Source: Beroe forskalii
Taxonomy: Eukaryota > Ctenophora > Nuda > Beroida > Beroidae
Length of the DNA stretch: 64,000 bases
Assembly: GCA_011033025.1 (NCBI GenBank)
Contig: WFMF01000383.1
Location: forward strand, 1-64,000
Direction of reading: 5' to 3'
Shown here: positions 2,740-64,000 of the stretch, one piece after another
How the letters are laid out: each line of letters starts with the position of its first letter
Position numbering within the stretch: the first letter of the stretch is position 1
Notes under the pieces: generated by a model
Seen by the model: the letters and a program-made list of their open reading frames with translations, nothing else
The model's database searches: none
Told to the model about the DNA's origin: nothing
Program-made: the position numbers and the translations under genes

Positions 2740-2748
2740 GAGGAGCCT

Positions 2749-3045
2749 GTGTCTCTATACCAAACTCTTAACAGATCAAAACGTAATACAAACCGATTTA
2801 TAACCCCTGTTCCTTCTAAGAATTTCACATACAGAGCCCCTTGGCTGTGGAATTGCTTCACCCAAATTCTTGACTTAGGGAAATTTGGCTTAGATAGCGA
2901 TGAGAACTTGATAAAAAGCCTACTGAAAAGGTCTCTCTTAGAGGGACAAAACAACAACTTGGAATCTTGGAGTAACGAAAACTTTCTGGCCTTTGCTCCG
3001 ATTGAGCTCACTAGGACAAACTGTAGCTCATCTGACCAATGCTAA
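2749..3045 (+). CDS. LINE ORF2 C-terminal end
   Basis: The last 98 or so codons of a LINE reverse-transcriptase frame, running opposite to ORF1 next door. It has the tail common in CR1/RTE-like ORF2 proteins (TPVPSKNFTYRAPWLWNCF, like RTxxxxSFxYRGxxLWNSLP), then a hydrophilic end and a stop at 3043-3045. The same segment recurs inverted at 63703-64000 with one clear amino-acid difference (LIKSLL against LIRSLL), so both copies are young. The reverse-transcriptase core is missing between this segment and the endonuclease part at 553-1203. Confidence 0.72.
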   Translation: MSLYQTLNRSKRNTNRFITPVPSKNFTYRAPWLWNCFTQILDLGKFGLDSDENLIKSLLKRSLLEGQNNNLESWSNENFLAFAPIELTRTNCSSSDQC

Positions 3046-4113
3046 TGTTATACTTCAATACTTTAATTCAAACTCATTGCAGTAATAAACAGGTTCAAAA
3101 GGTCGACCATGGCGCAAGGTGGAAGGCAAAATTTTTATTTATTTGATATCTCAAACGAATGTGTGTTGTAAAGTGTTGTAAGGTATAAGAAACTAACAGC
3201 ACTTGAAAGTCAAGTGCAACAACTTTCATGTTGTAATGAGAGTTGTGAAAATTTATGAGAGCTATACATGAAAGTCGTACTAGATGAGTTGTACGTGATA
3301 AGGCTTTATTTCAGTGCTATAGACAAAGATGTCTATTGAATTAGTATATTCCTATGAAGATAAATATAACTGTGAATAAAGATAATAAAATGGGCCCTGA
3401 TTGGTGTGGCAGGTGGTCCCCAGGGGCACTCTTAAGCATATAGCAACTGTGTCCTTTCTCCAGCCACATATACTGCTACACTAATCACTTGGTCCCCTGA
3501 TACGGAATTGGTCAACAAAATCGTGACTTATAGGGAATTCATTGGACCAGTTTCAAATAGCCTTATATATTACTTCATGTAAATGATATAAAATAGATTT
3601 CTCTATACGCTTGGTGTTCCTCAATGTGCATACTTTACTGCTATATCATGAAGTATGTGCTTTGCAAAGGAGTCTGGTATCATTCTCCTTTGTGTAGCAG
3701 ACCAAGCTCAAGAGCCATCTATACCATGGCAGACATCAACATGTCAAGCCATGCTTCATTAAATAGGCCTCCACTGGTCTGATGAATTATAACGGTACAT
3801 ATCGTCACAATACAGATGATACAATAGACCTCCAGATGTATTATTTTTAGTAAATACCATACTCTTTTATTGTAGTGTTGTATAACTATAAGCTTCTAAG
3901 ATCTGTAGTATAAATAATAGGTTATTAAACTGTCTGTATCTATCTGAAGAATTCAAAACTTAGATGCCTATTGCCTAATAAAAAAAGATAATTTCCATCC
4001 CTTAAATATCATTGTGAATAGTAAAACTGGGTAACGTTATGCCTTCATCGTTCTTTTGTGTGTGTTTTTGATTGTAATTTGTGGAGATCAATAAAAAAAA
4101 CTTTGTTTACTTA
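2749..4113 (+). mobile_element. LINE 3' end: ORF2 tail plus about 1.05-kb 3' UTR
   Basis: This segment reappears as the reverse complement at 62639-64000, nearly identical throughout. After the ORF2 stop comes a long untranslated region ending in a short A-rich stretch and CTTTGTTTACTTA. The second copy carries two of these terminal units in tandem, as CR1-like LINEs do with their short 3' microsatellite tails. Together with 553-2739 it forms one insertion with its 5' part inverted. Confidence 0.75.
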
Positions 4114-15899: not shown

Positions 15900-16500
15900 A
15901 AATCAAAATTTTTTATCTTTATCTTTATCTTTATCTTTGTTTTTAAACTTTTTAAACTTAATTACATTTTATTAATTTATGTTATGATTTTAATGGACAA
16001 GTAAGTGTAGCAGTTTTTAAATTTTGTTCTTTGGGCTCACAATAAGGAGCAGGTTATACTGTGTGTATAACTAAGTAGAATTATTAATTAATTAATTATT
16101 AGTTTCTAGGTTTTATGTATTTCATTTTACTTGTCTATTCAAAGTGACATTTAAGCAGGACACAAAAGCAGTGTCCCTAATTTTCAATTGATTATTATTA
16201 TTAGTATGTATCTTCTTTGTAGAACAAATACTGTCATCTTTGTAGTTTATATATAAGGAAGCAATTAATTAATTTTCAATAGTAGTTGCAGGCACAATTC
16301 TTTTTACTGATGAGTTCATGGAGGTTACAATCTAAATGATGGTGGTCTTTAAAAGAGCACCATCATTGTACCAGTACAAAAGATAGTTCTGATTCAAACA
16401 TTCGTCTCATTAATAAACTATAATTCAATGACCCTTGATCTATGAAGTCATTTCTATACTTCTACAGTTAAATTGATTATTAACCAGCCAAATCAAATTT
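15900..16500. other. PRDX4 upstream region
   Basis: AT-rich sequence upstream of the PRDX4 start codon. It begins with a (TTTATC)n microsatellite at 15911-15938. No clear TATA box or other core promoter element stands out. Confidence 0.4.
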
Positions 16501-16504
16501 GAGC

Positions 16505-19500
16505 ATGCTTCATCTACTTCTTCTTGCTGTCATTGGAATATCCGATGCTTCAGAAGAAGCATGTCCTATGAATGGCATTTTTGGATATGGACCCAAGGTA
16601 TATTATTAATTCTATCAATTTCCATATTCCAGAGCTTATGCTTTCAATGTTTTTGTAGAATTGAATTAGCATTTATTAACTATAACAGGGGTATGTCAAA
16701 CTCTTGCATGCACAGCTTTTTCATATGCCACTTAATCCTGTGCTGCTCACTGCCTCTAATTATCAGCCAGTGAGCCTAGCATGATTATGCCGCGCATGAA
16801 GAAGCTGCACACATAGGAGTTTGATAGGACACCTTAAGTTGAGACCTTTTATGTAATATTCTAACCCATAGCCATGGTGTCTCAACCTTTTGAGGCATGG
16901 CATATTACCCTACACTTGGGTGCTTTTTTAATGTGCGTTGCATTGAAAGTACTTAGGGATTGTTCACATATTAGGTGAGGAAAAACAAGAACAACAACTA
17001 AAAAGGGGGAGGGGGGTTCAATATGATTACTTAACATGTTTTTTTAACAAATACAACTACTGTCAACTTGATTGCGAGGGAGGAGGGGGGTAAAATCAGC
17101 CAAAAATTGATAACATAATATGTGAATGGTCCCTAAGCACACTATCACACACAGCAAAAAGCATGCCATGCCTCAAAATGTCGAGTCACCTGGGTTACAC
17201 TGACCCTCAACCTAACTAAGAAGGGCAGAAAATATATATGCAGAAAAAAAATGTTTGGCACATATTTAAGGGGGAAAACAACAACAACCAAAAAACTACT
17301 TTTCTGATTGTTAGATTAGTTTTTTTTGCCTCCATCCCCCGCCCTGACTACAGCTTCGTAGTTGACCCTAATGTTCCCTGAATAAAAGTACTTTTCATCA
17401 ACTAAATCCAATTCTGGATATCCCTGCATAAAGTCAGTGATAGCATCCCTTGCCCCATTGTAGTCATTGTAAATCCCTAGTCTTTACAAAATATGTTACA
17501 TCTTTGTTAAGATTTAATTTTGATAATATTCAAAGTGTAATCCTTCAGGTATATGAGCATGCTCTTGGTGTTGTCAAAGCTAGGATAAGCAAACCTGCTC
17601 CTGATTTTACAGCTGCTGCTGTTGTGAAAGGGAAATTTGAAGATGTCACCCTCTCATCATTCAAAGGTTTGGTTTTATCATAAGCATCATAATATTTTGT
17701 GAACTAATATGGATATACTTTGTTATAATGAGTTGAAGTTTGAATTATCATTATGAGTATAACCTATTTGAATGAATTGGGGGCTCAAAATGCTTATGTC
17801 TTTGTACATTGTTAGGAATATTGTAAGAACTTATTCTGGTGACTATTTGAATTGTTACATGATTACTTCAAAGGCAAGTATGTTGTCCTATTCTTCTACC
17901 CTCTCGACTTTACTTTTGTCTGTCCCACCGAGATCATTGCTTTCAATGATAGGGTGTCGGAGTTTAAAGCTATCAATACAGAGGTTTGATAATAATAACT
18001 TCTTTCTTGCTAATTTGAAATATTATCTCGATTTGTAGAATGAATGGATTTAATGTTATTTTTCAGAACAACTATTCTAAAGCAACGTACAGATCTGATA
18101 TTACAGGTTATTGCTGCTTCCGTTGACTCGAAGTTCACTCATCTAGCCTGGATCAAGACACCTAGAGAAAAAGGTAAATTTCATAGTTCTTATCAAATCA
18201 CTAATTCTCAGTTGGCAGCTCCCATTAGTGATTGACCTATGTACTTTGCTGTTCACCTTGTTGATGGTTGTGTAACATAGACTTCCTCATCCTAAACTGC
18301 TATCCACAAAAGTGAATTGAAGAGTTGTTCCTTGTCTGGGTGGAATCTTCTCAGATGCATATTTTCAAGTTTCTCCACAAATGAAATGGCACTTTGTTTC
18401 CAGGAGGTCTTGGTGACATGAAAATACCTATCATCTCTGATCTGACTCGCCAGATCTCACGTGATTACGGGGTTCTGTTGGAAGATGAGGGACACACTTT
18501 AAGAGGCCTCTTCATTATTGATGATAGGGGTAAGCAGTTACTAATTTAGTTAATTAATGAGTTAAGAGGCCTCTTCATTATTGATGATAGGGGTAAGCAG
18601 TTACTTATTTAGTTACTTATTTAGTAGCGCGAAAGCTTGTGAGAAATCATAATCCTCTCTTCATTCTATAGTGAAACCAGTAGAAATTTGATATAATTTA
18701 AATTCTATTCAAAGTACCTTGTCAGCTTATAAGATTTTTCCCAAATTCTTCCAGGTATTCTGAGACAGATAACTATGAATGATCTGCCAGTGGGACGTAG
18801 TGTCGATGAAACGTTGAGATTGGTGCCACTTCCTAAAATCTAATCTTTTTCAAACATTTGGGGACAGAGGGAGGGAAATTTTCGCGACTGATATTATGAA
18901 GAGCAATTCGGCCACTATACAGAAATTACAGTAGTTCTATTGCAACTAGGGACCTGCTATTCACATATCCTATTCCTCACCTTCCCTACCACGATCTCTG
19001 CTAACCCTCCTCAATGCCTTTTTGTAAAAGGCTTGTTTGTTTGAAAACCCGCATGGGGCACCACTAAGGGCTTTGAAAAGAAAAATAATTTATAAAACAT
19101 GCGTAACATAAAATCCCTTTACTGGGCACAGCACACCAAAAATGATTCTTAAAGAGATTTTAACTCTACGTGATCAATGTTAATTTCTTAATGATCGTGA
19201 AGACTACCAAGTCTTGTGTACTCACACCAAGAAACTAAAAAGAAATACAGACTCAGTCAATCAAATTCAAAATCAAAATATGACACCGAGCGAGTCTCCT
19301 GCTGATTATCACATAGTACAGGTGTCACTATGTTGTACTCCTTTGAACACTACATACTCGCCCGTTTCTTATGTAGTGTCTCTTTTCCTTGTCCTCTTCT
19401 GACAAGCGTTTTACCTCCTTCACCAGCTCCCTCCGCTGTTCTCTTTCCTCTGGAGATCTGTCCGAGTTGATGAACACTTTCTTGTACTTATCTAAGAAAG

Positions 19501-20546
19501 CAAGTTTCCTTGACTTGACAAGTATCAGGTCCGCAACTGTGGACGAAGCTGTAGTAACCTTCACAGGCCTTGCAGTTCCGCCGCTGGGTTTCCTCTGTCC
19601 AACACGACAAGCTTCAACACGGGGTTTCTCTCCCAATGACTGAAGAATCTCGTTCACCTTGTTACCCAAATCTTCTTCAGTTTCTTCTTCGAGGCCGAAG
19701 ATCATCACATTCTTGGCACGATCTTCTCCCTGAACGACATCTTGAACAACCTTCTTCAGTACTGTCTGGCTGACAGGCTTCTCCTTCACACTGCCTTGAA
19801 CTGCTGCGCTGTAGGATTTGATCTCTTCCTTCACTGTGCTCGACACTGACGTCTCGACAGTAGTTCTGATACTGTCCATCTGCTGGTCTTTCACTGACAA
19901 TAGTTCTGACTGAAGCTTGATGATAGTCTTCTGAGCCTCGATCAGCTCTGCTCCAACACTGTGAGACGTGTTCTTGTAGTCCGTCATGTGCCGCACAAGA
20001 CTGCTGATCAGGCACACGGATTCACGCAACAGTATTGCGGTTTCGTCCTGCCTCGCATTCAATACAATAGCCGTGGTCAGCTGTCCCGTGCTGGTGATCC
20101 CTAGTCCGTTGAAGGCTTTATCGAGGAATGAAACACAATTATTCTTTACCAATGCTTGCATTTCTTTGTGCTGGGCATCTTTTGTACTTGTACACATAGC
20201 CACACAGTAAACAGTGTTAATCTTGCTATATCAAACGTGCTGATAAGCGTACTGATAAGAGAGCATTAATAAGCAACGAATGTAAAAGTGATATACTGCA
20301 ACTTGAAAGTGATATACTGCATTGGGGAGGGAAAACATTTCAATTGTTGAGCATTTGATTTATTTTGAGTATTTTGATTTAAAACATTTCCTTGTGTTGA
20401 GATTGGTGCAGGCGTTCCAGTACACAGACCAGCATGGGGAAGTGTGCCCGGCTAACTGGACCCCAGGTCAGGACACCATGAAACCTGACCCTGACGGTAA
20501 ACTGGAGTACTTCACCAAGCACTGCAGTGACAAGAAGGAGCTGTAA
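16505..20546 (+). CDS. PRDX4: Peroxiredoxin-4 (secreted/ER 2-Cys peroxiredoxin), seven exons
   Basis: Thiol peroxidase that reduces H2O2 and, in the ER, feeds oxidising power to protein disulfide formation. Exons: 16505-16597, 17549-17666, 17874-17983, 18107-18173, 18404-18529, 18755-about 18822, 20412-20546; phases agree throughout. Exon 1 encodes a signal peptide ([15 protein letters not shown]) and an extra Cys (EEACPMN), the mark of PRDX4 against cytosolic PRDX1/2. The peroxidatic Cys is in FTFVCPTE (exon 3) and the resolving Cys in HGEVCPANW (exon 7). GGLG (exons 4-5) and the C-terminal EYF motif mark a form sensitive to over-oxidation. The last intron is odd: the coding words GTTGAGATTGGTGC occur at both ends, and neither GT-AG choice I tried keeps the full DETLRLVQAF; each loses two residues. 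The mature product is about 238-240 residues. Confidence 0.93.
16952..17137. mobile_element. About 186-bp MITE in PRDX4 intron 1
   Basis: Ends CTTAGGGATTGTTCACATAT and, on the other strand, CTTAGGGACCATTCACATAT form inverted repeats of about 21 bp. The interior holds two G-rich tracts. A related end, CTTAGGGATTGTTCACATAA, occurs at 40550. No coding capacity. Confidence 0.7.
18500..18625 (+). repeat. 63-bp tandem duplication spanning the PRDX4 exon 5 donor
   Basis: The end of exon 5 (encoding [10 protein letters not shown]) together with its GGTAAGCAGTTACT donor is repeated once, 63 bp downstream, in intron 5. The second copy keeps an intact donor sequence but has no acceptor of its own. Confidence 0.85.
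19328..20203 (-). CDS. LINE ORF1 (coiled coil + RRM-like nucleic-acid binding) inside PRDX4 intron 6
   Basis: 291 codons, intact, antisense to PRDX4. The N-terminal half is helical with heptad-like stretches ([20 protein letters not shown]). Then come [45 protein letters not shown] and [20 protein letters not shown], the usual order of the RRM-like and C-terminal domains of LINE ORF1 proteins in marine invertebrates. Such proteins coat element RNA. No endonuclease or reverse transcriptase follows in this orientation (19327 leftward), so the insertion is incomplete. It is a different LINE family from the one at 553-4113. Confidence 0.8.
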   Translation of the reverse strand: MAMCTSTKDAQHKEMQALVKNNCVSFLDKAFNGLGITSTGQLTTAIVLNARQDETAILLRESVCLISSLVRHMTDYKNTSHSVGAELIEAQKTIIKLQSELLSVKDQQMDSIRTTVETSVSSTVKEEIKSYSAAVQGSVKEKPVSQTVLKKVVQDVVQGEDRAKNVMIFGLEEETEEDLGNKVNEILQSLGEKPRVEACRVGQRKPSGGTARPVKVTTASSTVADLILVKSRKLAFLDKYKKVFINSDRSPEEREQRRELVKEVKRLSEEDKEKRHYIRNGRVCSVQRSTT

Positions 20547-20548
20547 TG

Positions 20549-20690
20549 TACTGCAGTGACAAGAAGGAGCTGTAATGCAGTGGAAATGTAGTGAAATGAT
20601 GTCCTCATGATGTCCTCATAATGTCCTCAATCCTCATGATGTCCTCATGATGTCCTCATGATGTCCTCATGATGTCCTCATTAGTCTCAT
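20549..20690 (+). repeat. PRDX4 stop-codon duplication and an 11-bp repeat in the 3' UTR
   Basis: The last coding words and stop (ACTGCAGTGACAAGAAGGAG then CTGTAATG) are repeated immediately after the real stop, offset by about 30 bp. From about 20598, TGATGTCCTCA is repeated some seven times. Neither changes the protein. Confidence 0.8.
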
Positions 20691-20869
20691 ACTCAATATC
20701 CTTCACCTCCAACCTTATAAACTTCTCAACAACTCGGTTAATCAATCATTTCCCAATTTTCAAGTCATGATGAAATTCCAAATTGCTGCTTATTGCCAAT
20801 CACCTTTATAAGGCATACTATTATTTTAATCTTCGAAACACATTACAGAGTAGTGGCACTCTTATATCT

Positions 20870-22500
20870 AATTGTAATAGCTATAGTGCAAATTATATTT
20901 GATTTTGTAGAATTTCCAGAAATGCATGGAATGATTTAATAGTGTATTTATTAGATTGGTAGATTATGCTTTCATATTGCTAGCAGCTAGATGTCGCTTC
21001 GTTATGTTTCTGTTACAAAGAAAGCCTCATAATATCTATGTAACTTGGAAGTTGACTCTGCTTATCATGCCACTACTTAGAGGTTCTTAGAGTTTTTACC
21101 TCTAAATTCAAAACTCATTCATTCAATGGGGGTTGAATGCTATGCTGTTATGAAGCAATATTTCCTGTTTATACGGCACGTAACAGCAGCATTTTCGCTT
21201 TTTTAAAGTTACAGAGTCACAGTGCATTTTCACTTTTTAATGGGTTTAATGCGGATCAGATCTTTAAAAACAGCATAGAGAAATTAATATCTTCTCACTA
21301 TCAGCCACGATAGCTTGCTGGAGTTGTGGCACAGTAAGGAGGTATTAATTGTATACTGCAATGCCTGAAAGTGCAGCATTCCTTGATGTCATGTACGTGA
21401 CAACTCACATTTCAATCGGCAGTGGCTCGTGCATTATCACCAATGATCACTGCTATGAGGTAAATTATCAGAGAAGCTGGCACGTTCTTTTTCCCAGGCG
21501 AAAATGTTACTATGATCGGAGGTTATCGAGGTTGTCAAGTTACCAGATGTAGTATGCTTGAAGGCATTATTATTCGCCGTTTCTCGACAAATTTTGCCTC
21601 TTTTTGAGGAAAATCTGGGAGAACGTTTGTTATGCATGTTAGATCTCAGCCGCGTCTTGGGTTTTTAGCCTTGCTTAATTTATTCATTTATTGTATATGT
21701 GTCGAAAAACGTATCCTTATTGTGACAATTGTTTCACTTAGCCATTAATAGACTCCATTCATTGTGTTACAGTAATTTGAAAGTGGATTATCGTGATGTT
21801 ATCAGTTTAGCATTAATATCGTCACCTGTTACAACTTATTGTGATAATCGGCAACTCTAAGTGGTCAGAGAGTAAGAAAGTTGTTGATACATATTTTTCA
21901 GACAGATCAATAGATTTTTCACGACACGATTAATAAAGCTTGACTAGTTTGACCCACCATTTCTAAATTGGGGGGTCCCTGCCCCGGTAGATGACACATT
22001 TCTTCTGTTCCCTAATAAGCTGATAGCCTCATATTAATCCCCCAATTCTTATCTAGCTGTATAATGGTGTTATCAGTAGTGTTCTACTGATTCCACTGTT
22101 CCCACTGTTCCCTAATCCCCCAATTCTTATTTAGCTGTATAATGGTGTTATCAGTAGTGTTCTACTGATTCCCACTGTTCCCTAATCCCCAATTCTTATC
22201 TAGCTGTATAATGGTGTTATCAGTAGTGTTCTACTGATTCCCACTGTTCCCTAATCCCCAATTCTTATATAGCTGTATAATGGTGTTATCAGTAGTGTTC
22301 TACTGATTCCCACTGTTCCCTAATTCCCCAATTCTTATCTAGCTGTATAATGGTGTTATCAGTAGTGTTCTACTGATTCCCACTGTTCCCTAATCCCCAT
22401 TTCTTATCTAGCTGTATAATGGTGTTATCAGTTGTGTTCTACTGATTCCCACTGTTCCCTAATCCCCCAATTCTTATCTAGCTGTATAATGGTGTTATCA
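20870..22500 (+). repeat. Dispersed segment, copy A: 1.1-kb unique part plus 70-bp tandem array
   Basis: Homologous in inverse orientation to 61030-62625. The unique part starts near ATAGTGCAAATTATATTTG. It includes the block around 21560-21750 that matches 62015-62215 almost base for base, and then runs into a tandem array (about 22030-22500) of a 70-bp unit containing CTAGCTGTATAATGGTGTTA. Copy A has about 260 bp (21228-21490) absent from copy B. It is interrupted by a Penelope-like element at about 22505-24340, after which three more array units follow to 24575. Confidence 0.75.
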
Positions 22501-22504
22501 GAAT

Positions 22505-24340
22505 GGAGCATGGAGCATGGAGCATGATGGAGCATGATATTTTGGTAGACACTGATACCAAAATAGCTGTTAGGAAATTCAGTGATTTTATCCTGAACGA
22601 ATCATTTGTTGTATTCGAAAATAAGGTTTATAAAGGAAAAGTAGGCATTCCCACTGGTAACTGTATTTCGCGTCAAGTTGCTGATATAAGTATGCACTGG
22701 TTGCTGTTTATAGTCCTCCAAATACACAAAGGTAATTGGTGGCAGTTCATTACGGTTTGGAGGAGGTATATTGATGATATCTTTGGCCGATGGAGGGGTA
22801 CCACTCGGCAGTTTCACCTCTTTGTCAATGAATTGAACAACAAAGCAAAAGACTATGGAATCCAGTTTGCAGATGCTCAAATAGGGGAATCAGTCCATTA
22901 CCTTGATGTTACCATATATTTGGATGACAATGGTGAAATTCAGTATTGCCTTTACAAAAAGGATACTGATGCTCGCCAATTTTTGAATACTCAAAGCTTT
23001 CACCCAAAAGATGTCTTCAGGTCTGTAGCGTTCTCACAGATGCTTAGAGTCATAAGTAGAAACTCTACTGATGAAACTACAGTAAGGGATTTGGCAGAAC
23101 TGAAAGACGATCTTGAGAAATGTGGGCACAAAGAAGACGATTTGGAGGAAATTGAACCTCTAGCTGTTCATAGAGCTATGGTTAATTATAATAAAAAGAT
23201 TTCACCCATCACAGCCTCTGAAAGTGATAAACCAGAAAGCCTTGTTTTCACCACTAAATTCTTTAAGGAGGTCAAAGTTTTGAAATCATTTATCCGCAAG
23301 CTAGAACCTGACATTAAGCTTAGAATTGCTGGTGAAATGAGAATCATATTTGCTCTGAAAAGAATCATTGCATACAGCAAAGAGTGGTTAAAAACAGGCG
23401 GTTAAGCATAGGTATGGTTGATCCTGATGCAGGACAAGCTTTAGAGAAGAATTCTCAGGCTTGTGGAGCCAAGGGATGTAGAACATGCCCTCTACTGTTT
23501 GGAGCTAATGAGGAGGTATTTGTTAATGGGTTTAAGGTTCGTCTGGATAAGAAGTTGAACTGCAAATCCAAGAATATCATTTATCTAGCACAATGTTCAG
23601 TTTGTCAGGCTTTAAAACTGGATATGGCTGATGTTCTAGGCGCAACAAAAGACAGTGTGCTGTTTGAAGACACTTATGTTGGCCAAACTCTAAGTGAGGG
23701 TCACGTGAGAATTAATGGACATAGAAAATGTTTCAAGGCTGATAAAAATGGTGAATTTTTAGATTATAAGAAGTCGGCTTTATCATGGCATTGCCATGTA
23801 GAGCACCCTGATGATTTCGATCTTAAATCTTTCAAATTTGGTTTTATTAGAGATTGCAAAAGTTTAGATTTAGACAGAGAGGAAAATAGGCTGATCACAA
23901 AATTTAGAACTGATGTTATTGGCCTGAATAGAATTAAAGTAGTAAGATAATTCCTCTCGTTCCCAGTTTTTTATGAGTTATGATTATGTCATCTGCATTC
24001 CTTTTATTTTGATTCATACTGGCTCATCCTAGCTGAGGGTGAAGGAGCATTCTATAATCGGTTGTTAATTCAGAGTCTCAGGTGTTTACTTTAGAATGAT
24101 TCTATTCTACCGTACTCATTTGAATGTTTTACCGCGCTGATTGTGCTCTTTACCCCTCAACTCCTTTTCCTTGTTGATTTAGCTTTTTGATAATTTTCAC
24201 AGGATTTATTTTTTCTGATTTATGTTCACTTGATATCACTAATTGATTGATTTACACAGGATGGAATTCTAAGGATGTTTTATACGAAGATATCAAGTTC
24301 CAATCAATAACTGTTTGTCTTATTTGCTGTCCAACCAAAA
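22505..24340 (+). mobile_element. Penelope-like element, 5'-truncated and broken (RT + GIY-YIG)
   Basis: A reverse-transcriptase part (about 22535-23400) shows GIPTGNCISRQVADI, the active-site RRYIDDIF and HYLDVTIYLDD. A GIY-YIG endonuclease part (about 23430-23950) shows CKSKNIIYLAQCSVC with a Cys pair, then DTYVGQT and RINGHRKC. This order is that of Penelope-like elements. The copy starts inside the RT domain, is broken at least once between the two parts, and ends in an A-rich (AAAAT)n tail. It sits in one unit of the 70-bp array, with array sequence on both sides. Confidence 0.85.
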
Positions 24341-24349
24341 TAAAAATAA

Positions 24350-24575
24350 AAATATCTACTGATTCCAACTGTTCCCTAATCCCCAATTCTTATCTAGCTG
24401 TATAATGGTGTTATCAGTAGTGTTCTACTGATTCCCACTGTTCCCTAATTCCCCTATTCTTATCTAGCTGTATAATGGTGTTATCAGTTGTGTTCTACTG
24501 ATTCCCACTGTTCCCTAATCCCCCAATTCTTATCTAGCTGTATAATGGTGTTATCAGAAGTGTTCTACTTGCAAA
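24350..24575 (+). repeat. Rest of the 70-bp array, right of the Penelope insertion
   Basis: Three more units of the same 70-bp repeat as 22030-22500. The last diverges after AGAAGTGTTCTACT. Confidence 0.8.
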
Positions 24576-25228: not shown

Positions 25229-28200
25229 CTATCCACAATCTCCCTGCTTCGGTACAGCCATGGTATGGCGGCTGAGTCCTGGTTTTGGCATTCGATCGCT
25301 GAACAAAACCTCCACTGCTGATTGCTGAGCAACTTGGTCCTCGATCGATACTTTGAGTCGTCTAAATCGTGTGCTCATAGATTTTCCACCGGCTGGGGGC
25401 GTTGGAAGGGCCCTCTTCTCAGTATTTGGGGAAATAACACTTCTTATGGGGCTGGTTGGAGTAAGCCTGGTAGGTGATTCAAGACTTATACTGGTCGGAG
25501 ATTTGATTTCGGGGGTTCGACGTTGTTTAGGGAATTCGGAACTTGAAGATGTCGAGTACGCTTTAACGAGTTTTTCTTTGCCCTTTGAAGAAGATCTGCC
25601 TCGGGAGCCACTGCGATGCTTTCGCTCGGGATCGCGTGAGGAATCACGTGACTGCCGTCCAATATCTCCCGAACTCTCACGAGGCTTAGGATCGCCTGAA
25701 CTATCACGTGACCTGCGTCTCGCGTCACGTGAACTATCTCGCGGTCTCCGCGGAACTTTGGCGACATCCTTCCCGCTCTTCTGATCCGTTATCTTCCGGG
25801 GACTTTCAACGAACGAACCGTCGTTAACTTCAAAACTCTCATCATAAGTCGGAGTTTTATTGATCCGAGGGGATTGAGGGGCAGGGTCAGAAGAGCCGGT
25901 AGCCCTGCGTGACCCCACTTCGACTGGGCTCACAGCTTGGCTGAGGGGGGAGTGGCGGGAGCTGGTTGGCCGGCTTAGTTTCCGGCCAGCAGTGCTCGGC
26001 CGGGAGATTTCATGCAGTGCTGCTTCGTAGTTTGCCTGCAATGGTTATAAAGGTTTATCTTTAGGCCTAGTTTCCGAGATGACACAGTAGGTGCCGACTA
26101 GTTAGACAAGTACCGCGGTACGTGCCGACTGGCTAGGGTCTTAGTGGGGTCATCTTAATTAAGGGTACACCGAATTTATTTCTAATTCTTGTCATATTGC
26201 CGTCTATGCACTCGTGCTAAGTATATTATAACAAGAATTGCGCCTGCCGGCGCATTTCATGTTGTCCGTTGCAGGCGCTTAATTTTCCTCTCCTACGAGT
26301 TTGAATAATGGCGCGCAGATGATATTATATCCATGTCAGTATGTTATAAATCATGGGAAAGACATAGTGAGATATTATATTTCATGATGTGATTCATAAA
26401 ATACTTAAAGAAGCAGGCCCTATTAATTTTATGCAGTAAGTAAATTTACTCGTCAAATGTTTTGAATACTTCCTCTACAGCTCATAATAATAACTATAAT
26501 AATTCAGTAGCAACGCTTGTTTGACAAAATACACGTAGTACCACCTGATACCGCACAATAAAATAGACGAATTTAGACTGGTGAATTATTGACATTTGAC
26601 CGCCTATTATTCCTGATGCGACCCAGTCATGTACTTGCCACAAAAGCCACTACTCCTAGCATGTAATTGCTATGTAAAATAGCACGACAAGCATGATAGT
26701 CACATCACCTCGCTAAATAGCATGATAAATGTGTTTCGTGATCATTGACTTCTATTAGATCGTTATGGATCAGTGGATTTTAGGGCATGTTAGGAAAAAA
26801 TGCAATTAATCTTGGGACTCAAAGTATTCTTTCCGGCGAACATAAAATAATTTTGGTGCGTCCATGTCTCAAAATGAACTGATGAAAGAATCAATAGTTT
26901 CAATTGTACACGACTTTCTCACTCATACACATAGTGTAACAGAAGTAGCATAAAATCTTGTAATAGAATATTAAAGCTCTTTGCATGCAGTGTATTAGAT
27001 AGATATGTACTTCATATTATATACTTTCTAATTTTGGAAGGATGAGGCAAATCAGCAATGGGATTATCGACATATACAGTAAATAGGTCGAGATTATGGT
27101 TAATCGTGTACTGATAAATTAGAAAATTATTAAGGGAGGGAATGGATCGTATAATTACGGCAAACCATGCCCTGGTAAATCAGGGGGTTACTGTAAATGA
27201 GGAGGTTACAGTAAATCAATCAGGGGATTACGGTAAATCAGGGGATTACGGTAAATCAGAGGATTACGGTAAATCAGGGGATTATGGTAAATCAGGGGAT
27301 TACAGTAAATCAGGGGATTACGGTAAATCAGGGGATTACGGTAACTCAGAGGATTACAGTAAATCAGGGGATTACAGTAAATCAGGGGATTACGGTAAAT
27401 CAGGGGATTACGGTAAATCAGGGAATTAGAGTAAATCACGGGATTACGGTAAATCAGGGGATTACCGTAAATCAGGGGATTACCGTAAATCAGGGGATTA
27501 CGGTAAATCAGGGGATTACCGTAAATCAGAGGATTACGGTAAATCAGGGGATTACGGTAAATCAGGAGATTACGGTAAATCAGGGGATTACGGTAAATCA
27601 GGGGATTACGGTAAATCAGGGGATTACGGTAAATCAGGGAATTAGAGTAAATCAGGGGATTACGGTAAATCAGGGAATTAGAGTAAATCAGGGAATTAGA
27701 GTAAATCAGGGGATTACGGTAAATCAGGGGATTACAGTAAATCAGGGGATTACGGTAAATCAGGGGATTACGGTAAATCAGGGGATTACGGTAAATCAGG
27801 GGATTAGGGTAAATCAGGGGATTACAGTAAATCAGGGGATTACGGTAAATCAGGGGATTAGGGTAAATCAGGGGATTAGGGTAAATCAGGGGATTAGGGT
27901 AAAACAGCCGGTATAACGGTAAATCAGGCCTAATTGCCTGCTTCTCGTCCTTGTTTTTCTCCTCATTGATGTTATCGACAGTAAGTTCCCTGGTGAGCCA
28001 GTCCCGGCTAGCTTGCCACTCCTTAACCATGTCATCCGCATCTTCACTCCAAGCACCAACTAACTTAGGCGGCTCACTCTGAAAATAATGTTATATCACT
28101 CCAAGCACCAACTAACTTAGGCGGCTCACTCTGTAAAGAATGTTTATATCACTCCAAGCTCCAACTAACTTAGGCGGCTCACTCTGAAAAGAATGTTTAT

Positions 28201-34200: not shown

Positions 34201-37200
34201 ACAGGCAAATTCCGATTTTGAAAATTGCATAACTCAGGCTAGGAACAAGATTTTTTCATTATGTAAAGTTTTTCTGGTAGCTATGATGCTCCTCTATCAT
34301 TTCTAGCCAAAAACTCGATTTTGGCCATCGACACCCTGAAGACCCCCCCTGCCCCCTTAACCATGTGTCCTATATCATTCAACACTAATTTCAATGTCAG
34401 AGTAAAATTTCCTCAAACAGCACTCCACCTGGTCCAGTGTCTCAACTCCGTTACTCTCGATATCCACGAGTTCCAAACTGTCGACCATACTCAGAGGACT
34501 AACGTCTGATATCACGTTATACGACAGGTACAGTTCCTGAAAGGGAGAATATCTAGACAATTTTTAGTTAATAATTATCATTAAATTATCACCTCGTTCG
34601 AAAATTTTTAAAACCATCAAAAAAGTCCAATCTGATCAAAAGTAACGAAACAACGGTGTACTCAAAACAACATTAAACAGAATGAACGCGCGCAATATGC
34701 AACCAGTTACCAGAGCAACGTGCGGGCCAATATATATCCATACTGCACGCGGGTCCCTCAAAATGTGTCTAAAAGGGACAAAAGACGTTACGATGTTCAA
34801 AAAAGCAATAACAGTAACAGATAATGGCAAATTATATTTGAGATTATCATTAAACTACTGTGGCACTGAATTCTCTAAACCGTAACCCTGGCCAGTTATG
34901 TCCCTGTAGCGTGCGATTTAATAAAAGTATACGCGTATCCCCATCAAGAACAGTTGTACAACACCTAACATTTTACGATGAATCGTTCGACTGTTCTAGA
35001 TAGGTCCCGACTCTCGACAAATCTTTTGCCATTTCTTTTATGCAGGGGTTTATCGCCAGGGCGGGAATCAGCAAGGCTATAGTTACTCAACACCTGTTTC
35101 AAGGATGCTTTCAAATGTTGAGATACTTTTACGCGGTGAGGTGGTGAAGGAAGTTTGAATTTTGAAATGCAGGGGTGATTGTTACAGTGTTAGAGAAGTT
35201 CAAGATAATAAAAAATCGGAGACAATTTTGTTAAAAATGATAAAATGGATAAAAGTAAGTTAAATAATCAAGAATCGCATGAGCAAGATACAAATATGAT
35301 TACAGATGAAACCTGTTCATCAAAAGATCAAAAACTGCTGACACGTGAAGATAAACCCTTTAAAACAACTACAGCAAATAACTAAAATTTCTAAAAACAT
35401 GAATTACATGTAAATTGACATCTCCTATTCACATTCGGACTTCTTCTGCAATACCGTTTATAACGATTGCAATACCTCTCACTTCCAATGTTTTTAAGAT
35501 TTTTACATGTCTCTGATTCAACATCATCTTCGGGAATTACTTCAGGAATAACTTCAGGAATAACTTCAGGAATAACTTCAGGAATAACTTCAGGAATAAC
35601 TTCAGGAATAACTTCAGGAATTACTTCGGGAATTACTTCAGGAATAACTTCAGGAATTACTTCGGGAATTACTTTAGGAATTATTTCAGACTCGTTCATA
35701 GTATCAGCTTTCTCTTTACCCATGCACGTTCCTGGGACCCTGCATTCCACTATGGGTTGAGAAAACCTATCGGCTATCAAGCAGTTGTTTGCTATATCCC
35801 TGTCAAATCTTACATATCCTTGTTCGCCCCATCTTTCACCCCATGAATTTCTTACCTTCCAGAAATTTTTACCATTCACATTCCCATACCCAACAACGAT
35901 CACTGCATGATCAGAAATATCTTGGCAGTTGTGTACGTCTTGAAAAATCCCGCTTCTATACATGAAAAAGGATTGCGTTGTATCAATAGCAGTAAGGACA
36001 GGGCCGCTGATTAGGGCTTCCATGAGCCCAGCATCGTTTCTAGAATCCATAAAACGCTTCCAACCAGTAACAGTTGCTTTTTCCAGAGCATTTCGGAACA
36101 GAATCGTAGTCACAAACACGATCTTTGTAATGGTAACCAGTATCTTTGAGGAAGGCTATTCTGTCATTGTTCCTGACGTATCTATACACTGCATTGATCG
36201 GTCCACCATTACACCCATCAAGAGAATGTGGTTCATAGTAGCAATCTAACGGTTCTTGTTCTGATAGCGTCAGTAGATCCCCAGTTTCGATGTAGTAGGC
36301 CGCTTCGAGAGCTCCCACGCCTGCAAAGGCCCAACAGCTGCCACAACGTCCTTGAAACCTTATAGGATTCTGAGCACCTCGTTTGACCCAGTCCAGTGAT
36401 TCCGGATAAGAGAGACTTTCAACGACCGGAACTCCGGACCCCCATACGGCTCCGTGGTCTGGATAGGCTGGCAGAATATCCTCGTCATCGCCATATACCT
36501 GTGACATGTTAACTCCGGTATACATTTTCTGTTCAGCTCTAGTTAAAATAGCGAACTTATTGACCTCCGCTGAGAATGGTATGTTATCGTGGCTGTTGAT
36601 GAAGTCAACTTCTTTCTTAAATTCTGTGAAAGCTAGAAAATGTTCCTTGTTCACGATACGTGAGCTTAAAATCCCGGAACCGAAGGGATCAGACATGCCA
36701 CCATCATCTCCAACACTTTCATAAATATTTGCTCCACTGTAGATGCCAGCTCCACTGTAGATGCCAGCTCCACTAAAATCATAGGATTCTCTCCCTTCCG
36801 GCTGTAAAATCATTTGATCGACACCAAACTTAGCCACGGCTTCAAGATACTCTTTTACCATAGGGTTACCAGATGTTACGGTAATCAAGTAAAGCAGTAG
36901 TGCCGCGTGCATGGTGGAAATCTGAATCAGTCGTGAAAATAAAACTAAATCGGATAATTTTTGAAGCGAAAGTGAGCATCGAATGAAATTTCTCAGTTTA
37001 CTCCTTTATAAAATTTTCTGACTAATCTTTATTAATAATTTCAAAGTGTCCGTGCGTTTGTGTGCGAATCACCGCCTTTAGGATCTATTTGTGGAATATT
37101 TTCAAACTCTTATCCTGATTAGTAACCAAAACTACCCTAACTTTAACCAAAGCCCTAACCTTCGACCCCGGAGATTTCACTTGACAAGCATTGAAAAGGA

Positions 37201-40169: not shown

Positions 40170-41080
40170 TAGAATTGATACAACTTAAAAAATACCTCTG
40201 AGCAATTAGATATTAGTCCATAAAGGATTTATTTGACCATGATTAGATGGGGTCTGATTGAGAGGACATACCTTATTCTTCCTTTTTCAAAAGAGTTGTA
40301 CAATGGCATATGAACTGAAGTCATCTTCTACTTTTAACATTCCTCAAATTTGATTGTATAAAGTATCATCGCAGGTGTTATTGTCATGAGAATTGAATCA
40401 AATGATAGAAATGATAATCAGAAATGATCGTTACTTCAGTGTTGTGATTCTGATCATGTGATCAGTCAAATTTATCAGCTTAATTCAGGCTGGTCCCTGT
40501 GAGATATATAAATTTCCATTACTCATCACAATACCAGTGTTGGTATGCTTAGGGATTGTTCACATAATAATACCTAATCACTTTTTGGTCATTTTCAACC
40601 CCCCCCCCCTTCCCCCACATGTAATCAAACATAATCAAAACCCCACCCACCCCCAGTGGGGAGAATATTAATAATCATGGCTTAAAAACCCCGCCTACTC
40701 GAGCAGACAATGAAGAAAATAGAATAGTTTCACAGAGAACAACTTACAATGTAACCTCTCAAATCCTTTACCACCTGAGTTTTTTGGAATCATCTTTATC
40801 TCTGACAATTAATATTGATATTTATGTTGTTTGCGTAAAGTAAATTTTCTTGTTTTCCTCATTTTCTTGTTTTTCTCAGTGAAAATGCTTTATTATTAAT
40901 ATTTATGATGATTCACCTCTGGGAAAAAATTGTGAAAATATTGAGGTAAGTTTTGAGAAATGTTGCTGCAGAAAAATTGTGCTCTTGGGTTGGTTTTCTG
41001 AAAATTTTGCTAAAAATACAGAGAATGTGGGTTTGCCTCCCGTATATATCTGGCTTAGTAACGTAATGTAGACCAAAACC
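40170..41080. other. Upstream of LRRC56; scattered repeat ends
   Basis: No exon recognised. A CTTAGGGATTGTTCACATAA end at 40550 matches the MITE of PRDX4 intron 1, and C-rich runs follow. The LRRC56 promoter may lie here, since no gene intervenes. Confidence 0.35.
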
Positions 41081-58874: not shown

Positions 58875-61053
58875 TTATTCGATCAGCTTCTTAGCTTTAA
58901 AGAACCGTTTCAGATAGAAAACTTGCCATAAGGCAAGTCCGAGAAGTACAGCCATCGAGAAGATGCTGAACCAAAGCACTCTGCTGTTGGTTGATTCTGT
59001 GGGGAGGGTCAAACGATTTTTAAGCGATCAGAAAGATTACTTTCGATAACATTTGGATTAGTTCGAAAGCTTAAATTGCGAAATCAAATTGACTTTGTGT
59101 TACGTGTCTAAATTATAAAAAGTCGCACAGCGCGCGCGATCGAATTGACACAGCCATATGTGCATTAACAATTTGTCTTTGCGATTCACGACTTTCATGG
59201 CGCGTTACGCAAACTAAATTAATTTTTGTGACCGTGCCACAAATCATAAAATTCTTCGATAATCATTACTAATCCTGAAAATCAAGAAGTTGTTGAACTT
59301 ACCGTTTGTGTCCCTCATGAGTTTTTCTCTAGATTTCATATAGGCGAAGTCACTGACGATAGCCTCGGCGAGATCTTCCAGTTTCTTCAACTCCAATTCC
59401 ATGGGCTTCAGCTTCTCAGCTTTAGCCAACTGAAATTGATGTGAACAATAAGTGATACGTTTCTAAGAAACTTCGCATCATAATCGCGTTAGAATTGACT
59501 CATATTAAGGAAAGAGAAACAGTAAGTCAATCCTTGAAAACGTGGGACAAAGGCCTTCTGAACTTACTTCGCTGTATGACTTGGCCTCGACGCCTCTTTT
59601 GATGTTAAGTTTCACATTGACATCCTCTCTGGGCCGACTTGATCCTTTAGACCTGAATAGTTTATGAAGAGTTTTAAAGAGATTTCAGACTTACTTACGT
59701 TATGTTGGATTAGGAACATATGGATCGGTGACCACTAAAATATTTAGATGAAGCCGGCAACCGTGTATAATACTGTACTAAAGGTGTTTTTAAGGTTTTA
59801 ATTCCAACAACTGTAACAGCCATGGAAAGAATCAGACAATTCAAGAATAATCGGGAGTAATCAAGGCAGTGATGGTTAAGGTAATCCATGCTTTATTCAA
59901 CCCCAGACTTCCCTACTCGACACTAAATATCCACCATGGACTCCGCAGCGTTAATCCTGCCATTTAAATGCTGCGTACGAGAAATAGGCGGGTAGGATGA
60001 CGTCATTATCATAGCTTTATGTAGTGAGTTAATGACGTTGAACCACGCCATTTTAGACCTGCCGTTGAAACAGATGTTGAACATATCGTAGTCATCTAGG
60101 GTGAAGGCAAACTTTCCAGCCTTCCCATTTTCTGCATCTTCCTTAGAGAATAGCGTCTGGTCTTTGGTGTCTGTTACCTGAAATTCAATCATTATCTCTC
60201 ATTTTGAATAGCGCATGGGTGCATGGCTATCCGTCACCTATCAAAAAATGTAGGCTATCCATATAAAACGTATCTGATGTAAAAAGTCACGCGATCCGAG
60301 GTAGTGTCCCTCAATAGCTAGTAAGTCACTAGGTAGAGTCACTACCTAGTGTCTCACAATTATTTATAAGTTAAATTAAAAAGTTTATTAATTGCAATAT
60401 TCTCACGTAGACTATTTCAATGGATTTCCAGAAAAAAACGATGACGGAAATTCTAGATTCTAGAATAGTACAAAATTTCTCGTCCCAGTTATATCATTTA
60501 CCTTGACATCCACTGCAAACATATCTGGAATGTCGTTGATTTCAAACTCCCCAACCACCAAGATATCCTTGTGTGCCTCTGCTTTTATACACCGTGATTC
60601 TGAAGATGCAACACATGAGATAATCGGATTCAGTAAATAGAACCCGGAATTATTCAATGTGGTAAAAAGCATGATTCAACGGAAGAATTGACAATTCTTG
60701 AAACATCTACACATCACTGAATCAAGCATGGGACTCAATGTTGGAGCAAAAAGTCAAATTTGGAGCAGATTCTCAAATAGCTTTATTGAAATTCTTCAGC
60801 TCTGTTACAAATAGGCCAAAGTTTGCGAACATGGCAGCGCGTATTGCCGCTGAATAAGCTATGTATTTTCAGGCCCATCGGGCCTGCTAGTTGATCGTAA
60901 TTCAGAATCTGGGAACAAATGAAACTGGTCCAAGTGACCACTTGGCTATTACAAGACATCGAAATAACTCTACTCACTGTCCGGAGGAAAGGTAAAGCTG
61001 ATGGAGGCGACAGTGGCCAATAGAGCACTGTACAACACTACTGATAACACCAT
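58875..61053 (-). CDS. TMED10: p24 cargo receptor TMED10, six exons, 208 residues
   Basis: Type I membrane protein cycling between ER and Golgi. It recruits COPI/COPII coats and sorts GPI-anchored and other cargo. Exons on the minus strand: 60978-61053, 60502-60599, 60059-60177, 59568-59652, 59303-59429, 58875-58996; phases agree and the model is full length. A signal peptide ([18 protein letters not shown]) leads to a GOLD domain with its Cys pair ([18 protein letters not shown]). A coiled coil follows ([36 protein letters not shown]), then a membrane segment ([20 protein letters not shown]). The tail, [12 protein letters not shown], has the FF (COPII) and KKLIE (COPI) signals of TMED10. The start codon and first eight codons fall in the last unit of a 70-bp tandem array. 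The third intron is bounded by the 10-bp direct repeat CAGGTCTAAA. Confidence 0.95.
59979..60050 (+). repeat. CRE-pair dispersed repeat inside TMED10 intron 3
   Basis: GAGAAATAGGCGGGTAGGATG continuing into ACGTCATTATCATAGC, then AATGACGTTGAACCACGCC. This is the best-preserved pair with 44150-44220. It lies just inside the donor end of the intron. Confidence 0.6.
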
Positions 61054-61680
61054 TATACAGCTAGATAAGAATTGGGGATTAGGGAACAGTGGGAATCAGT
61101 AGAACACTACTGATAACACCATTATACAGCTAGATAAGAATTGGGGGATTAGGGAACAGTGGGAATCTGCGAATTAGGGAACAGTGGGAATCAGTAGAAC
61201 AATACTGATAACACCATTATACAGCTAGATAAGAATTAGGGAATTAGGGAACATTGGGAATCAGTAGAACACTACTGATAACACCATTATACAGCTAGAT
61301 AAGAATTGGGGAATTAGGGAACAGTGGGAATCAGTTGAACACTACTGATAACACCATTATACAGCTAGATAAGAATTGGGGAATTAGGGAACAGTGGGAA
61401 TCAGTAGAACACTACTGATAACACCATTATATAGCCAGATAAGAATTCAGGGAATTAGGAACAGTGGGAATCAGTAGAACACTACTGATAACAATTCATT
61501 TTACAGCTAGATAAGAATTGGGGATTAGGGAACAGTGGGAATCAGTAGAACACTACTGATAACACCATTATACAGCTAGATAAGAATTGGGGGATTTGGG
61601 AACAGTGGGAATCAGTAGAACACTACTGATAACACCATTATACAGCTAGATAAAAATTGGGGGATTATGAGGGAAGGTAA
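61030..61680 (-). repeat. 70-bp tandem array over the TMED10 start codon, about ten units
   Basis: On the gene strand each unit contains CTAGCTGTATAATGGTGTTA then TCAGTAGTGTTCTACTGATT: an ATG followed by VLSVVFY and a stop. The last unit reads GTGTTGTACAGTG instead and becomes TMED10 exon 1. If transcription starts upstream, the leader would hold up to nine eight-codon upstream ORFs. A diverged outermost unit (61670-61740) again resembles exon 1 beyond the ATG (CTCTCTTGGCCACTTTACC). Confidence 0.85.
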
Positions 61681-62625
61681 AGTGGCCAAGAGAGCACGGT
61701 ACACATTACTGATAACACTAAATGATACAGCGAGCTAAGAATTGGGGTATTACTATGAGGCTTAGGGAACAGAAGAAATATGTAACTACCGGGGCGAGAA
61801 CCCCAATTAAGAAATGGTGGGTGAAACTAGTCAAACTTTATTAATCGTGTCGTGAGAAATCTATTGATCTGTCTGAAAAATATACATCAATAACTTTCTT
61901 ACTGTCTGAGCACTTAGAGTTGCCGATCAATAATTTGTAACAGGTGACGATATGAATGCTAAACTGATAACATCACGATGATCCACTTTCAAAATTAATT
62001 AACACAATTAATGGAGTCTATTAATGGCTAAGTGAAACAATTGTCACAATAAGGATACGTTTTTCGACACATATACAGTAAATGAATAAATTAAGCAAGG
62101 CTAAAAACCCAAGACGCGGCTGAGATCTAACATGCATAACAAACGTTCTCCGAAATTTTCCTTTAAAAGAGTCAAAATTTGCCGAGAAACGGCAAAAAAT
62201 AATGCCTTCAAGCATACTACATCTGGTAACTTGATAACACCCTTAAACCTTCGATCATATAAAAATTTTCGCCTGGGAAAACGCACTGTTACTCTGTAAC
62301 TTAAAAAAGTAAAAATGCTGCTGTTACGCGCCGTGTAAGCATGAAATATCGCTTTATAATAGCATAAAATTCAAGCCCCATTGAATGAGTTTTGAGGACA
62401 AAACTCTTAAGAACCTCTAAGTAGTGGCATAATGAGCTGATTGAACTTACATAGATATTATGAGGCTTCTATCTAGATTTGTAACAGGAATATAACGAAT
62501 CAACATCTATTAGCTTGCAATATGAAAGCATAATCAACCAATCTAATAAATACTCTAATTATTCATTCCATGCATTTCTGGAAATTCTACAAAATCAAAT
62601 ATAATTTGCACTATAACAATTAGGT
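61680..62625 (-). repeat. Dispersed segment, copy B (unique part), 5' of TMED10
   Basis: Inverted homologue of 20870-22000. It ends at 62625, where the terminal unit of a LINE 3' end begins, so the LINE insertion probably truncated it. The open frame 62021-62215 is shared by both copies but diverges and has no known domain. TMED10's promoter is likely to lie in this segment or the array. Confidence 0.7.
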
Positions 62626-62638
62626 AAACAAAGTTTTA

Positions 62639-64000
62639 AGTAAACAAAGTTTTTTATTGATCTCCACAAATTACAATCGAAAACACACACAAAAGAACGA
62701 TGAAGGCATAACGTTACCCAGTTTTACTATTCATAATGATATTTAAGGGATGGAAATTATCTTTTTTTTATTAGGCAATAGGCATCTAAGTTTTGAATTC
62801 GTCAGATAGATACAGACAGTTTAATAACCTATTATTTATACTACAGATCTTAGAAGCTTATAGTTATACAACACTACAATAAAAGAGTATGGTATTTACT
62901 AAAAATAATACATCTGGAGGTCTATTGTATCATCTGTATTGTGACGATATGTACCGTTATAATTCATCAGACCAGTGGAGGCCTATTTAATGAAGCATGG
63001 CTTGACATGGTGATGTCTGCCATGGTATAGATGGCTTTGAGCTTGGTCTGCTACACAAAGGAGAATGATACCAGACTCCTTTGCAAAGCACATACTTCAT
63101 GATATAGCAGTAAAGTATGCACATTGAGGAACACCAAGCGTATAGAGAAATCTATTTTATATCATTTACATGAAGTAATATATAAGGCTATTTGAAACTG
63201 GTCCAATGAATTCCCTATAAGTCACGATTTTGTTGACCAATTCCCGTATCAGGGGACCAAGTGATTAGTGTAGCAGTATATGTGGCTGGAGAAAGGACAC
63301 AGTTGCTATATGCTTAAGAGTGCCCTGGGGACCACCTGCCACACCAATCAGGGCCCATTTTATTATCTTTATTCACAGTTATATTTATCTTCATAGGAAT
63401 ATACTAATTCAATAGACATCTTTGTCTATAGCACTGAAATAAAGCCTTATCACGTACAACTCATCTAGTACGACTTTCATGTATAGCTCTCATAAATTTT
63501 CACAACTCTCATTATAACATGAAAGTTGTTGCACTTGACTTTCAAGTGCTGTTAGTTTCTTATACCTTACAACACTTTACAACACACATTCGTTTGAGAT
63601 ATCAAATAAATAAAAATTTTGCCTTCCACCTTGCGCCATGGTCGACCTTTTGAACCTGTTTATTACTGCAATGAGTTTGAATTAAATTATTGAAGTATAA
63701 CATTAGCATTGGTCAGATGAGCTACAGTTTGTCCTAGTGAGCTCAATCGGAGCAAAGGCCAGAAAGTTTTCGTTACTCCAAGATTCCAGGTTGTTGTTTT
63801 GTCCCTCTAAGAGAGACCTTTTCAGCAGACTTCTTATCAAGTTCTCATCGCTATCTAAGCCAAATTTCCCTAAGTCAAGAATTTGGGTGAAGCAATTCCA
63901 CAGCCAAGGGGCTCTGTATGTGAAATTCTTAGAAGGAACAGGGGTTATAAATCGGTTTGTATTACGTTTTGATCTGTTAAGAGTTTGGTATAGAGACACA
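62639..64000 (-). mobile_element. LINE 3' end, second copy, runs off the window
   Basis: Reverse complement of 2749-4113. The ORF2 tail occupies 63703-64000 and continues beyond the window. Its 3' terminus carries two tandem AAAACTTTGTTTACTTA-like units (62622-62655). Few differences from the first copy indicate recent activity of the family. Confidence 0.8.

Follow-up and report, generated by a model that had tools for sequence, protein, structure and literature searches.

Upstream of the TMED10 gene of the ctenophore Beroe forskalii stands a tandem array that was built from the beginning of the gene itself and that repeats its start codon together with a plausible splice acceptor. The reading we prefer, to which we give a probability of about one half, is that the array would serve as a row of repeated acceptors for a spliced leader, each with its own start, and that trans-splicing to the last of them would yield a clean TMED10 mRNA. 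The window referred to below is the whole stretch of DNA that was analysed, 64,000 nucleotides of contig WFMF01000383.1 (assembly GCA_011033025.1).

TMED10 and the tandem array at its start

The gene downstream of the array is TMED10, of the p24 delta family, as judged from its predicted protein. It runs on the minus strand from 61053 to 58875 and comprises six exons that encode a 208-residue model. Coding exon 1 (60978–61053; donor GACA|GTGAGT) holds the signal peptide, and exons 2–6 occupy 60599–60502, 60177–60059, 59652–59568, 59429–59303 and 58996–58875; the boundaries were placed by eye from the reading frame and the GT-AG rule. The Pfam family EMP24_GP25L matches residues 18–202 of the model and covers the mature protein (E = 1.6e-50). 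The best PDB match is a TMED10 chain (21gl_D, 4.7e-66), with weaker matches to TMED9 (2.2e-23) and TMED2 (1.5e-14), and the alignment with 21gl_D extends to the KKLIE C-terminus that both proteins possess. The gene looks single-copy in the assembly, where a search with the first 100 residues yielded three matches, all of them its own exons. Exon 1 contains no methionine other than that at 61053, so the signal peptide requires this residue. The claim of the sequence-only reading that the TMED10 start codon lies inside the last, gene-side unit of a ~70-bp array is confirmed for the ATG at 61053 on the minus strand.

The array occupies 61030–61667 on the minus strand and comprises eight ATG-bearing units followed by the proximal unit with the TMED10 start. 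Its main row, 61171–61667, has a period of 70, 7.1 copies and 93% matches. The eight unit ATGs open short upstream frames (uORFs) located within 61096–61638 on the same strand. Five of these, with ATGs at 61638, 61568, 61427, 61287 and 61122, encode exactly MVLSVVFY*; the remaining three read MVLSVVFN* (61357), MVLSVLFY* (61217) and MNCYQ* (61499). ATGs are present besides at 61706 and 61254, neither of which is a unit start. The context ATAATGG is common to the real start and to seven of the eight upstream unit starts. A run of uORFs ahead of the TMED10 start had been described from the letters of the DNA; eight unit ATGs do stand there, but the "about nine identical" frames of that description come down to five exact copies in eight. 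The proximal unit had likewise been taken for a full unit opened into the gene by a few changes. It follows the consensus over positions 1–44 only, a match that runs through codon 6 to the second base of codon 7; the sequence beyond is unique and coding, as at the edge of a repeat.

Tandem arrays are common in the window, where 26 of them make up 9.2% of the sequence when the tandem-repeat rows are merged by hand and some rows are left out, so that the overlap of an array with a start codon is not very improbable in itself. The copy number of the TMED10 array could be an assembly error. Repeats are found within other frames of the window as well. A 294-residue open frame on the minus strand (27206–28090) consists mostly of an 18-bp array encoding NPLIYR repeats, and a papain-family protease (35391–37005, minus strand; PF00112 in two frames) has eleven copies of an IPEV repeat in its second frame, together with a Cys-rich tail.

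Origin of the repeat and its inverted duplicate

At the distal end of the array lies a decayed unit, here termed unit 0 (61663–61743, minus strand), which has lost the unit ATG and has kept TMED10 signal-peptide coding sequence (GTACCGTGCTCTCTTGGCCACT). Past the repeated part, unit 0 resembles codons 7–18 of TMED10 with a local score of 37; the maximum among 5,000 dinucleotide shuffles was 26, none reaching 37, and nothing else in the 73.9-kb stretch comes within 6 points of this score save exon 1. The upstream edge of the array (CTGTTCCCTAA), in both of its copies, resembles the upstream part of the unit by eye. TMED10 coding sequence is therefore present at both ends of the array, which is most simply read as a duplication of the start region followed by multiplication of a short form of it. 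On this evidence the 70-bp units are tandem copies of TMED10's own start region, set down upstream of the gene. The sequence-only reading had left it undecided whether the array amplified the start of a host gene or donated a start codon to it; the evidence supports amplification and not donation, since in unit 0 the TMED10 coding sequence continues past the repeat.

Unit 0 had been overlooked at that stage, and so had two stretches of a second array on the plus strand, a left part at 22035–22501 and a right part at 24355–24569. They are split by an insert (22502–24354) with two RT-like frames, which from their motifs read as Penelope-like; with an E-value limit of 0.01, a Pfam scan assigned the two frames to no family. 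The second array belongs to an inverted duplication that pairs 61030–70077 with 16103–24569 piecewise, with ~36.5 kb between the inner edges. A peroxiredoxin gene and the region downstream of it lie in the duplicate; two of the three exon frames scanned match Pfam families (AhpC-TSA, 2.6e-08; 1-cysPrx_C, 2.1e-16). Its edge falls inside a repeat unit, at 24569, and TMED10 is absent beyond. In the second peroxiredoxin copy, at 18499–18619, an exon end and its presumed donor (GATAGGG|GTAAGC) are doubled by a tandem duplication of 63 bp, another duplicated exon edge nearby.

The presence of a TMED10-less copy of the repeat 36–39 kb away speaks for a mobile satellite that was inserted and gave TMED10 its start codon and first codons. 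This copy, however, sits in the inverted duplicate together with the neighbouring peroxiredoxin gene and the region downstream of that gene, and so was moved as part of a segment. Searches of the 216-Mb assembly gave at least 21 matches to the repeat, and those listed are confined to two places in this window. Together with the coding sequence that unit 0 holds past the repeat, the location of the second array inside the segmental duplicate led us to reject donation by a satellite as very improbable.

The region upstream of TMED10 (61753–62622, minus strand) is shared with 20875–22004 at ~10% substitutions, and in the flanks of the duplicate 93 of 873 aligned sites differ (87 of 848 when the range is drawn a little tighter). 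The unit consensus of the two arrays, in contrast, shows no difference over 69 positions (chance 4e-4 if sites are independent). Single units, with unit 0 and the gene-side unit left out, depart from the consensus at 22 of 1,216 positions, below the expectation for units unchanged since the duplication. The identical consensus and the low divergence of the units therefore suggest that units probably turned over within the arrays or were exchanged between them after the duplication. Selection is an alternative cause of this uniformity, yet the array that lacks TMED10 is equally uniform; it has eight MVLSVVFY* frames and has kept all ten acceptor-like AGs. Because that array is as intact as the one beside TMED10, intactness of the units indicates youth and not use or selection.

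Two further features of the upstream region were noted. A block at 62010–62151 aligns with its partner near 21618–21759 over 142 sites with at most one mismatch, where the usual rate is ~10%, and none of 2,000 permutations reached this agreement. A structured RNA was considered and set aside; an Rfam search of 60950–62700 at E up to 5 gave one match, at 62284–62372, outside the block and at 17.1 bits against a gathering threshold of 88, and folds of both strands of both copies were no better than those of shuffled sequences (z 0.69 to 2.23). The block may reflect gene conversion or an element of another kind. The second feature is an RT-bearing element inserted upstream of TMED10 at 62621–64907 (RVT_1, 9.8e-17), with another copy at 2748–4113. 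Over 62637–64000 it shows 98.8% likeness to a copy elsewhere in the window, and in the duplicate the site is present but empty, so the insertion apparently followed the duplication.

Candidate splice acceptors and the spliced leader

A typical unit reads TTATCTAG|CTGTATA and continues with the first eight codons from the ATG on, so that a putative 3' splice acceptor lies seven bases ahead of the start. Acceptor-like sites precede CTGTATAATG once per unit on the minus strand, at 61646, 61576, 61507, 61435, 61365, 61295, 61225, 61130 and 61061. The site is plausible (TTATCTAG or close to it) in eight of the nine TMED10-side units; the unit at 61435 has GG in place of AG. Scored with splice-site base frequencies typical of animals at large, the unit AGs of this array fall at the 92.7–97.0 percentile of 8,398 AG sites and follow 35–61 AG-free bases. 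The AG at 61061 scores 1.51 (92.7 percentile) with 44 AG-free bases ahead of it, and the other seven score 1.51–2.99. TMED10's own five acceptors range from -2.1 to 5.32 (68.8–99.4 percentile). In the TMED10-less array ten of ten units have an acceptor-like AG, at the 89.6–98.7 percentile, and over both arrays 16 of the 18 unit AGs are preceded by at least 44 AG-free bases. Among 2,694 ATGs outside the arrays, 30 (1.1%) have an AG within 20 bases that scores at least 1.5 after 40 AG-free bases, and 184 (6.8%) do so if the AG-free stretch is disregarded. The site at 61061 has the pyrimidine-rich tract, the AG-free stretch and the AG close to the start that characterise an acceptor for a spliced leader. 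The unit acceptor was noticed post hoc and its scores are good rather than outstanding; these figures amount to moderate evidence for it.

A unit acceptor would serve a conventional 5' UTR intron equally well, with its donor upstream of the array. With the RT-bearing element set aside, the strongest donor-like candidate of the upstream region is TAT|GTAAGT at 62445–62450 on the minus strand; it scores 2.54 at 62450 (97.5 percentile), against 2.66 for the first donor of TMED10, and the TMED10-less duplicate reads GTAACT at this place. Chance donors are as strong, however, three sites in 61040–65240 lying at or above the 95th percentile, two of them inside the RT-bearing element, and the change in the duplicate falls in a gapped, divergent stretch whose neighbouring blocks differ at 11 of 86 and 19 of 90 sites. 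We regard such an intron as unlikely.

A transcription start inside the last unit or immediately ahead of it would place no upstream unit in the mRNA and would make the array an inert minisatellite or a set of weak core-promoter copies. Minisatellites make up ~9% of the window, and of the two arrays the one that lacks TMED10 is no less intact, as expected without selection. Against such a start, the sequence directly before the ATG resembles a splice acceptor. We consider it rather unlikely that transcription begins there.

Trans-splicing to the units, the preferred reading, presupposes a leader. For the ctenophore Hormiphora californensis, the published description reports a leader that 56% of Iso-Seq reads carry and that has 718 genomic places (PMC8527503). 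A 24-base part of the Hormiphora leader was found at 39 places in the Beroe assembly at up to three mismatches, against one for the reversed control, and an adapted 30-base pattern at 1,283 places (658 + 625), against none for its control. A 15-base pattern taken from the same source was not convincing (90 assembly places against 62 in the control), and with a tunicate leader pattern the places numbered 14, scattered, against 4 for the control. At the level of the motif, the ctenophore spliced leader is present in this genome. The Hormiphora form ends in ...CAACACTACTTTAAACAAATTAATTTGAG and the Beroe form in ...CAACACTACTTTATACAATCAAATTTGAG, both of one family by the sequence given in that description, and genomic copies number in the hundreds in both species (PMC8527503). 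The leader section of the Hormiphora paper mentions no repeated acceptor array of the kind proposed here (PMC8527503).

Twenty copies, the first listed of the 1,283, were read individually. An ATG lies within 18 bases of the leader end in 18 of them, where 30% is expected (P = 5e-8); after four look-alikes are dropped the count is 14 of 16 (P = 4e-6), and among copies that do not begin with GT it is 13 of 15 (P = 1e-5). The acceptor-to-ATG spacing of seven in TMED10 lies within the range of leader-to-ATG distances in these copies. In all 20 the leader is followed by varied sequence, and some copies form families or inverted pairs; for these reasons the copies look mostly like retroposed, family-forming RNAs that bore the leader. 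GT, a possible donor, directly follows the leader in five of the 20, and these five could be leader-RNA genes, although none of the 20 was established as a leader-RNA gene with a donor.

Some further observations concern the leader and the source of the DNA. One leader-tagged sequence resembles, by eye, the 3' end of the RT-like insert of the second array (window 24262–24350). The window itself holds a leader-like motif at 40366 on the minus strand; it departs from a 24-base pattern at two bases and is followed by GAATG. In the mitochondrial contig (13,339 bases, 17.5% G+C), by our reading, TGA stands for Trp, and AGA/AGG for Arg where COX1 is conserved, as at DRN; all of its long frames listed lie on one strand, features that appear compatible with ctenophores. 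The two frames after the presumed nad5 have no Pfam match; since five of the seven mitochondrial frames scanned are without one, "unidentified" is a weak description of these two. Two unidentified frames after ND5 are mentioned in a passage on the mitochondrial genome of Beroe forskalii (PMC6991124).

Fate of the upstream starts and comparison with known systems

We infer that the TMED10 pre-mRNA starts upstream of the array and that the spliced leader is trans-spliced to a unit acceptor seven bases before an ATG. Were the gene-nearest acceptor at 61061 used, with the leader joined at 61060, the array would be lost with the outron and a uORF-free mRNA would result in which the leader leads directly to the TMED10 ATG. 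Use of an acceptor further upstream would leave one to eight short uORFs in the mRNA and permit little TMED10 to be made. The short frames of the upstream units are thus probably removed for the most part by splicing, and the gene probably begins at the last repeat.

In the model of the sequence-only reading all units are retained in the mRNA and the number of uORFs sets the translation of TMED10. In its favour are the eight unit ATGs, seven of them in the ATAATGG context of the main start, and the five identical peptides. The same shared context, however, suggests that an mRNA with all units should translate TMED10 poorly, as eight such ATGs would leave the real start little initiation, and eight of the nine units have acceptor-like AGs. 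Selection on the uORF was looked for; changes occur in it 6 times at 27 positions and 16 times at 42 positions elsewhere in the unit, with no significant depletion (P = 0.28). Retention of all units is distinctly improbable, and control of TMED10 by uORFs or copy number, while possible, is probably not its normal reading. A related proposal would let the array, with its self-made acceptors and starts, tune an essential secretory gene through the number of its units, in that the sites compete for the leader and only the last gives a clean mRNA. We hold this to be quite unlikely; if it were true, gain or loss of one 70-bp unit would change TMED10 output.

Should the array indeed act as a row of leader acceptors, tandem duplication of a gene start would be tolerable in animals with leader trans-splicing, because splicing can discard the extra starts, and upstream ATGs read from the DNA of such animals would not necessarily be uORFs. 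The array would also offer a natural experiment on acceptor choice by the spliceosome when the sites are nearly identical, with the outcome directly readable in long-read RNA.

That the choice of a trans-splice site can alter uORF content is a known principle in Trypanosoma congolense; passages of the study concerned describe alternative trans-splicing that adds or removes uORFs, for which repression is proposed (PMC6084854). As in those passages, the choice of one acceptor among several would set the number of uORFs per mRNA, but the sites proposed here would be near-identical tandem copies of the gene's own start, a kind of copy that those passages do not describe, and they occur in an animal (PMC6084854). 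A title-level search of the literature found no row of acceptors and starts built from a gene's own beginning, and we make a weak claim of newness for this arrangement.

The human thymidylate synthase gene (TYMS) has 28-bp enhancer-region repeats near its start, the copy number of which is linked to expression. Like those repeats, the TMED10 array is a short tandem repeat close to a start codon; the TYMS repeats contain, to our knowledge, neither a start codon nor a splice acceptor. The array also resembles an ordinary minisatellite at an exon edge, in that its 70-bp units stand head to tail as products of tandem duplication and many such arrays lie nearby. It differs from an ordinary minisatellite in its unit, which includes a start codon as well as a plausible acceptor and derives from an apparently single-copy gene.
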